From a virus, in the IMG/VR virus record IMGVR_UViG_3300021963_000333, positions 1-37,094 of that record: DNA of 37,094 nt; one strand, given 5' to 3'. A model generated the notes under the pieces. It was not told the DNA's origin. It saw only the letters and a program-made list of their open reading frames with translations, and did no database searches. The position numbers and the translations under genes are program-made. This document shows positions 503 through 22,914 of this stretch, in pieces. Each line of letters begins with the position of its first letter. Within the stretch, counting starts at the first letter, position 1.

Positions 503-1438
503 TTATACTCTTTTCAATATCTTTTTATTTGTCAGTTCGCCATAACCTGATCTTTTTATTTTACCTTGACGATCTTTAATCATTTTAACAATAGTACCTA
601 TTGTTACTTTTTTACCATTATATCTAGTTGTAGATAGTTTTTTATATTCACCCTGACTAGTTTCAGGATAATATTGACGCATTAGATTGATGCCTTCACT
701 TTGACCTAACTCGTGGCAGAAAGCCCAAGTAACTCTAATCCAAGTTTCGTAATTAAGATCGGGATACAATCTTTTTAGTTCTTGTATCATTAACTCAATA
801 TCTTCTGGTGTATTTTTACTATATTGTACATTATCTACATAGGGAACATATTCTTCTACATTAAAGATATAAGGATCAATCATTAAACCTTTGTTGCGAA
901 ATGCTATATTATCCTCTTTACCTGAATGAAAGTAAAAGCTTTGACTTACACTAAAACTAGCACCATCAACGTTGGGAAACATTTTTCTAATGTCCTTTTG
1001 TCTTCCAGCAACATCTTCTGCAAGTAATGGCCTACTAAACGGTATTACTACACGAAATCTATGTTCATCTTTTTTATGTCTAAATGTAGTATAAAGCACA
1101 TATTCAATGCCCTCTAACTCAGTTATAGTTTGTTCAATAGTTTGATCTTTGTCAAAGTCAAGCACGATACCTGTAATAGATACCATATTGTTTTTACATC
1201 TGCGTATCGTGTTTGGTATTTCATCATATGTTTCTTGTCGTTCTCCATCAACATAATGATATTTGCGACCCAATTCATAGTCAGTTGTTTTGAAGTCAAC
1301 CATATTGTATAGTTCAACATTTTCTTTACTGTCAACATCATAATGATGTATCAATAAATCACTAATCTCATCCCACGACAAATCCAACCTTAAATCAACA
1401 TACGCTTTTTGTACTGATTTGAAAGTTGAGATTATCAT
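503..1438 (-). CDS. AEP-family primase (PrimPol-like) with PriCT-type C-terminus
   Basis: Predicted DNA primase of 311 aa that would make primers at the phage fork. The N-terminal two thirds looks like the archaeo-eukaryotic primase fold used by phages and plasmids. It has a metal-binding acidic motif LDFDKD (residues 93-98), the block FRHKKDEHRFRVVIPFSRP (119-137) and a SQSFYFHSG segment (165-173), where these primases have the SQxFYxPS signature. Residues about 215-290 resemble a PriCT domain: a helical segment with NYETWIRVTWAF, then YNGKKVTIGTIVKM. It overlaps the upstream 90-aa gene by ATGA and is followed two bases later by the gene leaving the window. With an SF3-like helicase in the same unit, this is a standard primase-helicase pair. 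No DNA polymerase is visible, so polymerase activity by this enzyme is possible but not shown. Confidence 0.85.
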   Translation of the reverse strand: MIISTFKSVQKAYVDLRLDLSWDEISDLLIHHYDVDSKENVELYNMVDFKTTDYELGRKYHYVDGERQETYDEIPNTIRRCKNNMVSITGIVLDFDKDQTIEQTITELEGIEYVLYTTFRHKKDEHRFRVVIPFSRPLLAEDVAGRQKDIRKMFPNVDGASFSVSQSFYFHSGKEDNIAFRNKGLMIDPYIFNVEEYVPYVDNVQYSKNTPEDIELMIQELKRLYPDLNYETWIRVTWAFCHELGQSEGINLMRQYYPETSQGEYKKLSTTRYNGKKVTIGTIVKMIKDRQGKIKRSGYGELTNKKILKRV

Positions 1439-1707
1439 ATTTGTCTAGCCCCTTGTGATGAGAGTTCATTAAAATATTTCATTGTTTCTTTGAACTTCGT
1501 TGTTGCTTCTTCTTTGATTGTAGGATTGTCGTGGTTCAGTTGTGAACCATATACTTCTAATATATCTTCCAACATAAACAATCTTTTTTGTTTTTGTTTT
1601 GGACTTTCTGGTTCCAGAACGTTTATTTTATCAGGTGCATTCATAATCACTAACTCACGTTGAATACCTTTTAATGTTTTTAATAACTCTGTTTGAAAAT
1701 CGTTCAT
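1435..1707 (-). CDS. Small hypothetical protein upstream of primase
   Basis: A 90-aa charged protein with no recognised domain. It has an N-terminal helical stretch (FQTELLKTLKGIQREL), a Pro/Lys linker (PESPKQKQKR) and a helical C-terminal half. Translation starts at 1707 behind a good AAAGGAAT ribosome site and ends in an ATGA overlap with the primase, so it should be translationally coupled to it. It is the first gene after the folded RNA at 1771-1903, and that RNA would sit in its 5' leader if transcription comes from upstream. A primase accessory or DNA-binding role is a guess from position only. Confidence 0.7.
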   Translation of the reverse strand: MNDFQTELLKTLKGIQRELVIMNAPDKINVLEPESPKQKQKRLFMLEDILEVYGSQLNHDNPTIKEEATTKFKETMKYFNELSSQGARQI

Positions 1708-1770
1708 ATCTATTCCTTTAGAGGCACTTGGGCCCGTTAGTTTATTAGCCCAAAATAGAATTATTTTATG

Positions 1771-1903
1771 ATTTCTCGCAGGGCAACCGATCTTGCATCG
1801 GGCGGAGATAAAAAGACTTCACCCTCTTTATCCAGCCCTTTGGGGACCGAAGTCCCCATTGTGCTTTGTGAAGTTTTGTCCTTTGCAGGACTGAGCGAGA
1901 AAT
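1771..1903 (-). ncRNA. Compact structured RNA with multi-way junction and predicted pseudoknot
   Basis: No gene lies between 1708 and 1941. Read on the minus strand, the segment folds almost completely. A closing stem P1 pairs 1895-1903 with 1771-1779 (9 bp). P2 is the hairpin 1878-1891. P3 is 1842-1857, GGGGAC-UUCG-GUCCCC, a C(UUCG)G tetraloop only on the minus strand. P4 pairs 1835-1839 with 1780-1784 and abuts P1. P4 encloses P5 (1824-1832 with 1807-1815, 9 bp including one G-U) and P6 (1787-1801, 5 bp). The P5 loop (1816-1822) is perfectly complementary over 7 nt to 1868-1874, giving a pseudoknot. The G-U pair becomes an A-C mismatch on the plus strand, so the minus strand is the likely RNA. 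It may be a cis-acting leader element or a processed RNA; I do not recognise a known family. Confidence 0.75.
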
Positions 1904-1941
1904 ATTGAAATGTCGGAAAGTACTAATAACCGACAATCTAT

Positions 1942-2127
1942 TTATACTTTCAAATCATCTACTAAACTTTCCAAGTATTCTTCATATGCATCGTTTTCAA
2001 ATAGTTCTTCTGCCCTACCTATGGGCACGATTTGTCCCAATGCATTGTAAAAGATTGCTTTGTCCAGTTGTCGTTCGTGTACAGTCAAATATCTATCTAT
2101 TAATCGTGTTTCAGTTTTAGTTAGCAT
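1942..2127 (-). CDS. Small acidic hypothetical protein
   Basis: A 61-aa protein starting MLTKTETRLIDRYL. The C-terminal half is strongly acidic (ELFENDAYEEYLESLVDD) and probably helical. Its start overlaps the end of the 56-aa gene by 11 nt, which supports coupled translation. No domain is recognised. Small acidic early phage proteins often bind or inhibit host proteins, but nothing in the sequence shows that here. The folded RNA begins about 40 nt downstream of its stop. Confidence 0.6.
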   Translation of the reverse strand: MLTKTETRLIDRYLTVHERQLDKAIFYNALGQIVPIGRAEELFENDAYEEYLESLVDDLKV

Positions 2128-3561: not shown

Positions 3562-3598
3562 AAAAAAAGACCCAGAATGACTAAAAACTGGGTCTTTT
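3562..3598 (-). terminator. Strong intrinsic terminator at end of virion block
   Basis: Minus-strand RNA forms an 11-bp stem pairing 3588-3598 with 3565-3575 (AAAAGACCCAG against CUGGGUCUUUU) with a 12-nt loop, and runs into a 7-U tract. It separates the late block (lowest gene at 3730) from the early promoter at 3500-3528. A run of four T also follows the stem on the plus strand, so weak bidirectional action is possible. Confidence 0.85.
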
Positions 3599-3715
3599 AA
3601 TGCTCTTGCGAGCCTATCAACGGAATATTAAGATGTAGACAGTTACTTAAAGGACAAATACTATGGCGTAGTATTATAACAGGAACTGAATATGCAATCA
3701 GTCATAACTGCCTAC
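3562..3715 (-). ncRNA. Candidate small RNA or structured 3' UTR ending in a terminator
   Basis: The 270 bp between 3460 and 3729 hold no gene. On the minus strand 3705-3715 pairs with 3635-3645 over 11 bp, with one G-U that would be an A-C mismatch on the plus strand. The enclosed segment has a 7-bp hairpin AAUACUA/UAGUAUU (3657-3675). Further 3' is a GCUC-GCAA-GAGC hairpin with a GNRA loop (3602-3613), then the terminator. A folded body followed by a Rho-independent terminator is the usual layout of a small RNA. It could also be a stabilising 3' end of the late mRNA. I see no dedicated promoter. Confidence 0.5.
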
Positions 3716-3729
3716 AAATATATTTATTC

Positions 3730-17780: not shown

Positions 17781-19391
17781 TCAATTTGCGCTATAAGCTT
17801 TCTTCCAAGCAGGCTTATTGCTATCATCATATTTAACATATCTGTCACGCTGTGCTAACATTCTTTGTTGTGGTGTTCTGTTATCCCAAGGTTCTGCTAT
17901 TCCATTTAGACAAGCTAGTATAGCATAACGACAGCTATCAATACAATCATCTGGGTCGCTAAATCTGCCCTTTTCATCAACGAAATAGTTTTGTGCTTCA
18001 CTTAAAAAGTGTGTGCAGTTTTCGTTAACCATTAAGCTTCCAACTTCTAACATTTGACGCATTTGGTTAATACCATATGCTTTGTGATTAGTAGTGCGAC
18101 CTTGACTATCTGGTGGATTCATAATAGCCTTTTCATAAACATTAAGTTCATAGCTTTCAAATAGTTCTCGTATTGAACTACTGCTCATTGTATATCTACC
18201 AACAGTATTAGCATCAGGAGGTAATACGATAGGAGTACCAAATACTTCAGGACGTAATAGATGATTAATATATTGAGTTGGTACTGCTTCTTCAATGCCT
18301 TGAACTATAATCTGTTTATGTAAGTATGCTGTTCTTTCGTAAGGTTCCCAATACATTAAACTGATAACAGTTTTATCATTAACTAAACCCAAGTCTAATG
18401 CAATAACTCTGTGAATATGTGGCATTCGTTGAAAGTCAATCTCACCAGTTTTATATGTAGGCCAGGTGCTTAGTTGGAACACAGCGCCTTTACCCATAAC
18501 AGGTTTACCCGCAATACGTGCTTCACGTTCGTGTGGTAAGTAATCACGCTCAAGTTGTTTGCGTGTTTCGTTTAATAGAAATGGTAAACCCCAAGGATCA
18601 TATTCTGGAACATCGTCCCAACTTACTCGTATGTAGTTGTATCCCTCTTCTTTATTCCAGAACTTTGATACGAGACCGTTAAGTCCTTTAAGAGGTGTAA
18701 ACGAACAGAGGACTTTACCTTGCGTCGTGGCAGTACGTGTAACGATTTCACTGAAGAAGTCATCTGGTGGCTGTTCGTCAAAGACTGCGAGGTTAAGTTT
18801 GAAACCTTGTAGCTGTCGTACTTCTTGCGTATAGTTGGCAAATAACAAATAGCTATTACTACCAGACTTATGCTTAATCTCCACACCAATGCAGTTTGCG
18901 CCGTCATTACGCATAGTACTAGTAACAATACACTCACGTGGTATAGCACCAGATCCAAGATTTTCAGTAATTTTGACATCTTGTGTTCCTAACAATTCAT
19001 TTTGTAATACGAGTGCAACCTGACTCCAACCCTCACCTGCAACCATTGCTGTGATAGGACCAGCGAAGCGATGACCTTCCCACCAATCAGGATATAAGCC
19101 AGTTAAGTGCATAGCTGTTTCATAGCAAGTACTAACTGTTTTACCAATACGGTTTGCCGCAAGAATACCTCTACGCTCACTATTACCTGTCTTAAAAAAC
19201 TCTAGTTGGTGATTGAATGGGCGAAAGTATTTAAGTTGATGATAGCGCATATCTTCAGCTATTTCAATACTCAAGTCCATTAGTTTATTTTTTAATGGAC
19301 CTGGTATTGTTTTCAATGCATCAACAGTAAGATTATATTCATCTACACTGTGTCGCAATGCTCTCGCCATTAGAGTATCTTCACCCAGCAT
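17781..19391 (-). CDS. terL: Terminase large subunit
   Basis: A 536-aa packaging motor. The ATPase domain has Walker A AANRIGKT (78-85), Walker B LAVFDE (201-206) and the coupling motif SFTP (230-233). The nuclease domain begins near RVIALDLGLVNDKTVI, with the first catalytic Asp at D333. The overall pattern (N-terminal HQLEFFKTGNSERRGILAAN, no separate Q-motif fusion) is closest to terminases of the T7 gp19/Terminase_6 group. It starts in a TAATG overlap with the 99-aa gene. The upstream small genes are candidates for packaging partners. Packaging type (cos, pac or direct repeats) cannot be read from the sequence. Confidence 0.93.
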   Translation of the reverse strand: MLGEDTLMARALRHSVDEYNLTVDALKTIPGPLKNKLMDLSIEIAEDMRYHQLKYFRPFNHQLEFFKTGNSERRGILAANRIGKTVSTCYETAMHLTGLYPDWWEGHRFAGPITAMVAGEGWSQVALVLQNELLGTQDVKITENLGSGAIPRECIVTSTMRNDGANCIGVEIKHKSGSNSYLLFANYTQEVRQLQGFKLNLAVFDEQPPDDFFSEIVTRTATTQGKVLCSFTPLKGLNGLVSKFWNKEEGYNYIRVSWDDVPEYDPWGLPFLLNETRKQLERDYLPHEREARIAGKPVMGKGAVFQLSTWPTYKTGEIDFQRMPHIHRVIALDLGLVNDKTVISLMYWEPYERTAYLHKQIIVQGIEEAVPTQYINHLLRPEVFGTPIVLPPDANTVGRYTMSSSSIRELFESYELNVYEKAIMNPPDSQGRTTNHKAYGINQMRQMLEVGSLMVNENCTHFLSEAQNYFVDEKGRFSDPDDCIDSCRYAILACLNGIAEPWDNRTPQQRMLAQRDRYVKYDDSNKPAWKKAYSAN

Positions 19392-22365: not shown

Positions 22366-22422
22366 ACTAGTATTTATCGCCTCATTTTTATGATATTAAA
22401 TACGACATTGAAAGGAAACGCA
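22366..22422. promoter_or_regulatory. Divergent intergenic promoter region with oppositely oriented TAAATAC elements
   Basis: The gap between the minus-strand gene starting at 22365 and the only plus-strand gene contains GATAAATAC on the minus strand (22378-22370) and TATTAAATAC on the plus strand (22394-22403), each pointing at its own gene. This orientation match supports TAAATAC as a promoter core for both. An AAAGGAAA ribosome site serves the plus-strand gene. Confidence 0.5.
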
Positions 22423-22914
22423 ATGACTTATACTTGGAGACCTGCTACTGGAGCAGACGTACCACAAATCGTACAAATGGCTATTGACCATTTTCAAATT
22501 GAGATAGATACTATCTTTACTCCCGATCCCGTTGCATATAGTCGCAACATTACACTTAGTGTCGTTAATCAATTCTATAGTCCTACAACAGAACTATTAT
22601 CTGTCGCAGTTGATACAAACAACACTATTGTTGCTTATACCTGGTGCAAAACAAAAGAGTATGCACCTTGGTCCGATGACGAAATGGTCATTGTTAAAAT
22701 GGCACATTTATCATTAAATCTATCACCTAGAGAACGAGTTATCTTAGTGAAAGATATGTTACGATTATGGGAGGCTTTTGCTACTTTGGCTCAAGTTCCT
22801 ATTATTTGTTCTACCACAATGCGTAAAGACCAATCAAGTTTTCTTAAACTACACAAACAGTTTGGTTATGATGTTCGTGGAAGTTATGCTTACAAAAAAG
22901 TTAGTGCCGTATAA
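22423..22914 (+). CDS. GNAT-like acetyltransferase, the only plus-strand gene
   Basis: A 163-aa protein with a GNAT-like layout. An N-terminal WRPATGADVPQIVQMAI segment resembles motif C. Central strands follow (ELLSVAVDTNNTIVAYTWC). The C-terminal part has CSTTMRKDQSSFLKLHKQFG then YDVRGSYAYKK, the usual beta6-beta7 end. A typical acetyl-CoA pyrophosphate loop is not obvious, so it may be a divergent or inactive acetyltransferase-fold protein. ATG 22423 is chosen because AAAGGAAA precedes it; the longer ATG at 22390 lacks such a site. It is transcribed against the surrounding genes, divergent from 22365 and convergent with the Dps-like gene. Confidence 0.6.
   Translation: MTYTWRPATGADVPQIVQMAIDHFQIEIDTIFTPDPVAYSRNITLSVVNQFYSPTTELLSVAVDTNNTIVAYTWCKTKEYAPWSDDEMVIVKMAHLSLNLSPRERVILVKDMLRLWEAFATLAQVPIICSTTMRKDQSSFLKLHKQFGYDVRGSYAYKKVSAV

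Follow-up and report, generated by a model that had tools for sequence, protein, structure and literature searches.

A conserved pseudoknotted RNA precedes the primase operon of an uncultured podovirus-like phage, probably as the operon's 5′ leader and probably serving as a switch or brake on primase production. The RNA is encoded in the window, by which we mean the whole stretch of DNA analyzed, a 37,094-base IMG/VR virus record assigned to a podovirus-like phage by matches to portal, major head, terminase and virion proteins. Among annotated phages, Podoviridae sp. ctfne034 (MW202484) is the nearest relative, with 52% identity in the terminase and 62% in the major head protein. Nearly all genes of the window are on the minus strand, and replication genes are encoded around the RNA. 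A lone 174-aa ORF (22390-22914) is found on the plus strand of this otherwise minus-strand genome. The initial annotation had read the RNA on the minus strand ahead of a primase gene, and this is borne out by a PHROG DNA primase match, with Pfam PriCT_2 just below its cut-off.

1771-1903, minus strand: pseudoknotted structured RNA of 133 nt (113 nt in both homologues), from RNAfold, covariance model R1 and covariation
1435-1707, minus strand: 90-aa ORF, the first gene past the probable leader, preceding the primase (ORF list)
503-1438, minus strand: PriCT-type DNA primase (PHROG DNA primase, E 1.2e-9; Pfam PriCT_2, 20.9 bits with a cut-off of 22)

RNAfold predicted a structure of -54.4 kcal/mol for the minus strand of this region, in which helices P1 to P6 formed unprompted. 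The six helices and 7-bp pseudoknot described initially are all in the sequence, the pseudoknot having been recognized by inspection. None of 200 dinucleotide shuffles (mean -34.9 kcal/mol) was as stable as the minus-strand RNA (z -5.47), in agreement with the proposal that it is more than a chance hairpin. The plus strand gave a different and weaker fold that was also below shuffles (-50.4 kcal/mol, z -4.15).

1895-1903, minus strand: P1 5′ strand AUUUCUCGC, pairing with 1771-1779 (9 bp in all three phages)
1771-1779, minus strand: P1 3′ strand GCGAGAAAU, pairing with 1895-1903
1878-1891, minus strand: P2 hairpin GUCCU-GCAA-AGGAC with a GCAA loop, in the window phage only (deleted in L090 and L094)
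1868-1874, minus strand: pseudoknot 5′ strand ACUUCAC, 7 bp with 1816-1822
1841-1858, minus strand: P3 hairpin UGGGGAC-UUCG-GUCCCCA with a UUCG loop (fold and covariation)
1835-1839, minus strand: P4 5′ strand AGGGC, pairing with 1780-1784; the homologues retain just its inner GGC/GCC
1806-1833, minus strand: P5 hairpin with an 8-nt loop and two G-U pairs, 100% paired in all three phages and shorter in the homologues
1816-1822, minus strand: pseudoknot 3′ strand GUGAAGU, within the 8-nt P5 loop, 7 bp with 1868-1874
1787-1801, minus strand: P6 hairpin with the invariant loop (U)GCAAG(A) (covariation)
1780-1784, minus strand: P4 3′ strand GCCCU, pairing with 1835-1839

Two details of the original description needed amendment. 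It had P5 containing one G-U pair able to pair only on the minus strand; such strand-specific pairing is present, but in two pairs (1833-1806 and 1826-1813). The statement that nearly every base is used is correct for the window phage but not for its homologues, where P2 is absent and P4 has shrunk to GGC/GCC.

A covariance model built from the single window sequence (R1) and run on related phage contigs found one homologue (L084/L090, 48.9 bits, E 3e-9), with the RNA at L090:5220-5332 on the minus strand. The second homologue, L094:752-864 on the minus strand, was added by a pattern scan of IMG/VR and was also found with R1. DNA of the RNA region is approximately 69% identical, and all three phages share the gene order 56-aa ORF, 61-70-aa ORF, RNA, 71-90-aa ORF and PriCT-type primase, the ORFs 3′ of the RNA in L084 and L094 being 71 aa each. 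Both homologues were likewise predicted to be much more stable than shuffled sequences (z -5.1 and -4.9, compared with -5.5 for the window). In the homologues RNAfold formed the pseudoknot helix and not P5, as would be expected of compatible but non-nested helices in a program that does not allow pseudoknots. Coding constraint was considered and rejected as an explanation for the RNA, since the ORFs crossing it are short and the homologues differ from the window by 20 nt in length.

Few carriers of the RNA were found. Conserved-core patterns across IMG/VR recovered three true carriers only, with the remaining matches resembling coding sequence, and a scan of bacterial genomes gave 30 matches, about the number estimated by chance, none of which was supported by model R2. 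Neither the 31 related contigs nor approximately 1.9 Mb of loci yielded an additional carrier with R2, and MW202484 had no R2 match. A borderline R2 match in L088 (17 bits) was discarded; it overlaps the pattern match that had brought L088 in and lies in a coding-looking region. Annotated phages gave no useful BLAST match to the RNA or to 20 kb of the window.

Support for the individual helices came from a hand-made alignment of three sequences trimmed to a gapless core, for which P2 and 3 nt of P5 were cut from the window sequence, while one C was cut and one N inserted in L094. Across the three sequences, 11 of 42 pairs had changed on both sides and 92.9% of cells were paired. No shuffle out of 500 reached 11 double changes together with 92.9% pairing, and slid registers gave 0-3 double-changed pairs with at most 50% paired. 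Most of these changes reflect one split, the window versus the other two, because two of the three sequences are close, and P6 and P1 also change between the two close homologues. Compensatory change had been proposed as the test for P1, P5 and the pseudoknot. The pseudoknot passes from ACUUCAC/GUGAAGU to UUACCACA/UGUGGUAA (8 bp) in the homologues, with four of eight pairs double-changed, and P1 has one compensatory change (UA/CG) and is otherwise sequence-invariant. P5 is unbroken and nearly invariant, its single change being G-U to G-C with one G-U kept in all three, and it is therefore backed by pairing rather than covariation. Among the other helices, P3 has four double-changed pairs with the register kept (GCCCC/GGGGC in the homologues), its loop and two end pairs being unconserved; P6 has two, one of them with three pair types; and in P4 the two outermost pairs do not form in either homologue.

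The 3′ half of the RNA is nearly invariant across the three phages (GGCUGGAUA..UAUCYCCGCCC-nn-UGCAAGA-nn-GGUUGCCCUGCGAGAA), in contrast to the pseudoknot and P3, which vary freely. This arrangement suggests that a sequence-specific binding site or an active core may be carried on structural arms.

Conservation extends into both flanks of the RNA.

1939-1946, minus strand: putative promoter motif TATAAATA, with TAAATA preceding GTCGG by 4 nt in each of the three phages
1912-1934, minus strand: 5′ hairpin GUCGG..CCGAC, the probable transcript start, conserved in all three phages (RNAfold)
1709-1759, minus strand: leader hairpin in which UCUAUU pairs with AAUAGA adjoining the start codon, with the Shine-Dalgarno (SD) AAGGA inside; sequence conserved in all three phages

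TAAATA is exactly 4 nt upstream of the 5′ hairpin in each phage. The longer ATAAATA occurs at nine window sites, every one of them on the minus strand (1939, 2310, 2338, 3517, 3721, 10594, 13421, 22371 and 34873); one site overlaps the end of an ORF and the other eight lie outside ORFs, compared with 37 of 161 sites outside ORFs for rearrangements of the same letters. The core of T4 late promoters is TATAAATA, spanning -13 to -6 (PMC1524935), and the putative promoter motif at 1939-1946 is identical to it, which is a match of letters in a podovirus-like phage. Downstream, sequence is conserved across the three phages from P1 to the start codon, and the leader hairpin encloses or adjoins the SD of ORF 1435-1707. 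Predicted pairing probabilities in the SD region are high in the window and L094, and in L090 AAUAG is paired and the SD purines are open. The stretch separating the RNA from ORF 1435-1707 yielded no terminator.

A primase-profile search extended the comparison to 13 primase loci, and R2 detected no pseudoknotted RNA of the window type in the new ones among them. Nine relatives, whose primases are related, have another structured leader at the same site (L002, L232, L233, L234, L235, L237, L240, L241 and L242), composed of two adjacent hairpins whose loops pair with each other, within pairings that include the SD. These kissing-hairpin leaders precede the primase operon with strong covariation at the following loci:

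L002:50-156, kissing-hairpin leader
L240:3955-4056, kissing-hairpin leader
L232:4175-4310, kissing-hairpin leader
L242:3530-3710, kissing-hairpin leader

The kissing loops differ in sequence while remaining paired (UUAGCGU/ACGCUAA, UUGGUAG/CUACCAG and CUGAACC/GGUUCAG). Among four hand-registered representatives, 15 of 22 pairs were double-changed and 97.7% of cells were paired, compared with at most 44% in slid registers. A descriptor scan of 1.1 Mb found 7-bp examples at these leaders and just two elsewhere; the bulged leader of L242 escaped the scan, and L232 scored at 6 bp. Rfam gave no match in seven loci, L094 included, and the kissing-hairpin leaders are not in Rfam. In L002 and L235, competing pairings of the SD and start codon are predicted, which would be switch-like; in the window phage, no alternative pairing between the RNA domain and the SD hairpin emerged.

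The two kinds of leader share their site before a small ORF and primase, a TAAATA-type motif, a 5′ hairpin, and a hairpin loop engaged in a tertiary helix of 6-7 bp. They differ in that the relatives use loop-loop pairing, whereas in the window the loop pairs with an upstream strand; the closing pairing of the kissing leaders directly takes in the SD; and there is no sequence similarity, R2 missing the kissing leaders. In L002 the primase is 82% identical, yet the leader is of the kissing type, so the pseudoknotted fold is not tied to the primase protein. L236 lacks a leader gap before the primase operon and L239 is truncated at that site; every examined operon in this set that has a leader therefore has a structured one. 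That the position is retained although the architecture differs favors a function in the operon downstream.

The absence of a recognizable riboswitch or ribozyme signature, remarked on initially, was upheld, as no Rfam 15 family matched the window at the gathering cut-off; at E up to 10 only scattered chance matches appeared in 1500-2200 and in L087. No description of the RNA was found in the open-access literature. Structured phage leaders are a known kind of element, and the architecture here is new, with three carriers found. In T4, a pseudoknot in the gene 32 leader nucleates binding of the gene product, which blocks its own translation; its sequence diverges among relatives, and RB49 is reported to be without it (PMC535899). 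Like that operator, the window RNA has a pseudoknot, here covarying, upstream of the ribosome-binding site in what would be the leader of a phage DNA-replication operon. The T4 element differs in being a pseudoknot of approximately 28 nt followed by an unstructured UUAAA-rich stretch (PMC535899), while the window RNA is a multi-helix domain of 113-133 nt before the primase operon, followed by a structured SD region; in place of an unstructured A/U-rich stretch over the ribosome-binding site, the SD is predicted to lie within or next to a hairpin. T4 gene 32 is a precedent for function, a comparison of working and not of membership. The suggested likeness to phage packaging RNA gained no positive evidence: the phi29-type RNA, which belongs to phages with a pRNA-dependent motor, is likewise phage-encoded, compact and multi-helix, but the window RNA has no Rfam match and no packaging genes beside it, and the terminase large subunit encoded at 17781-19391 is an ordinary one.

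Several other explanations were weighed. In one, the RNA would be transcribed from the TATAAATA promoter, be cut at P1 or beyond it, and persist as a stable small RNA acting in trans on host or phage targets, with the primase merely downstream. It has its own promoter-like motif and a compact domain closed by the 9-bp P1, and the phage encodes another conserved structured RNA, probably a stand-alone small RNA, which adds to the plausibility of this reading:

3562-3716, minus strand: second structured RNA, with a terminator at 3562-3598 and an ATAAATA motif at 3721-3727

This second RNA has a 13-bp closing stem (UGUAGGCAGUUAU/GUAACUGUCUACA) and two hairpins, then the terminator. Its closing stem covaries in homologues at L198:8616-8760 and L199:10229-10398, and weaker similarity was seen in L233 and L240. 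For the RNA at 1771-1903 no such terminator was found before ORF 1435-1707, conservation runs from P1 up to the start codon, and relatives keep SD-pairing leaders at the site, all of which makes a trans-acting role for it unlikely, although this reading ranks next after cis-acting control. A metabolite-binding aptamer would be a special case of a cis-acting leader, and the conserved core, variable structural arms and downstream SD hairpin do resemble riboswitch anatomy. With no Rfam riboswitch match, no metabolic gene downstream and an unrelated fold in operon relatives, which would be unusual for one shared ligand, we regard a riboswitch as improbable.

Self-cleavage of the leader, for example by a distant relative of the twister-sister ribozyme, would fit an invariant 3′ half (UAUCYCCGCC-P6-GGUUGCCCUGCGAGAA) beside freely varying arms, and the UGCAAG loop of P6, a hairpin after a CCGCC linker, resembles the twister-sister loop. 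The twister-sister model (RF02681) did not match the window RNA; its one fragment, 15 nt inside the G031 copy, scored 10.5 bits against a cut-off of 34, and with E allowed up to 10, RF02681 also picks up matches in 8 of the 14 control genomes. Twister-sister ribozymes have an internal loop between P1 and P2 with a C-A cleavage site. Here P1 closes a pseudoknotted multiloop, and its 3′ strand comes immediately after P4 in each of the three phages, so there is no room for that loop. We found no positive evidence for the ribozyme suggested initially, and consider one very improbable. A DNA-level element such as an origin, packaging site or cruciform deserves hardly any credence: replication genes are nearby and the plus strand also folds below shuffles, but the minus fold is stronger, the P5 G-U pairs (one kept in all three phages) pair only as minus-strand RNA, and the element is co-directional with the genes and has a promoter-like motif upstream.

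Cis-acting translational control is favored over these alternatives because nine relatives have a different, SD-pairing structured leader at the same site, and we think it reasonably likely that the conserved RNA is a cis-acting leader of the small-ORF and primase mRNA that controls translation of the operon. This model draws on the fold, the covariation, the synteny and the structured leaders of relatives. We infer where transcription starts, that the RNA acts in cis, that there is a switching step and what any ligand would be. Transcription would start just 3′ of TATAAATA (1939-1946), giving a transcript that begins with a protective 5′ hairpin. The P1-closed domain would fold next, with the upstream strand 1868-1874 locking the 8-nt P5 loop, and the transcript would then enter the hairpin pairing around the ribosome-binding site of ORF 1435-1707. 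Whether the domain is unoccupied or has a phage replication protein or small molecule bound to it would alter the openness of the ribosome-binding site and thereby set primase output.

T4 is known to have structured leaders on its replication genes; to our knowledge, few phage leaders of this kind have been described elsewhere. Tentatively, the two leaders may represent a new regulatory class in which one site has two unrelated architectures within a lineage, both responding to the same phage protein or signal. The finding adds an uncatalogued, covariation-backed RNA at a site where relatives hold a different structured leader, and with it reporter and binding assays could test how an uncultured group of podoviruses regulates primase expression.
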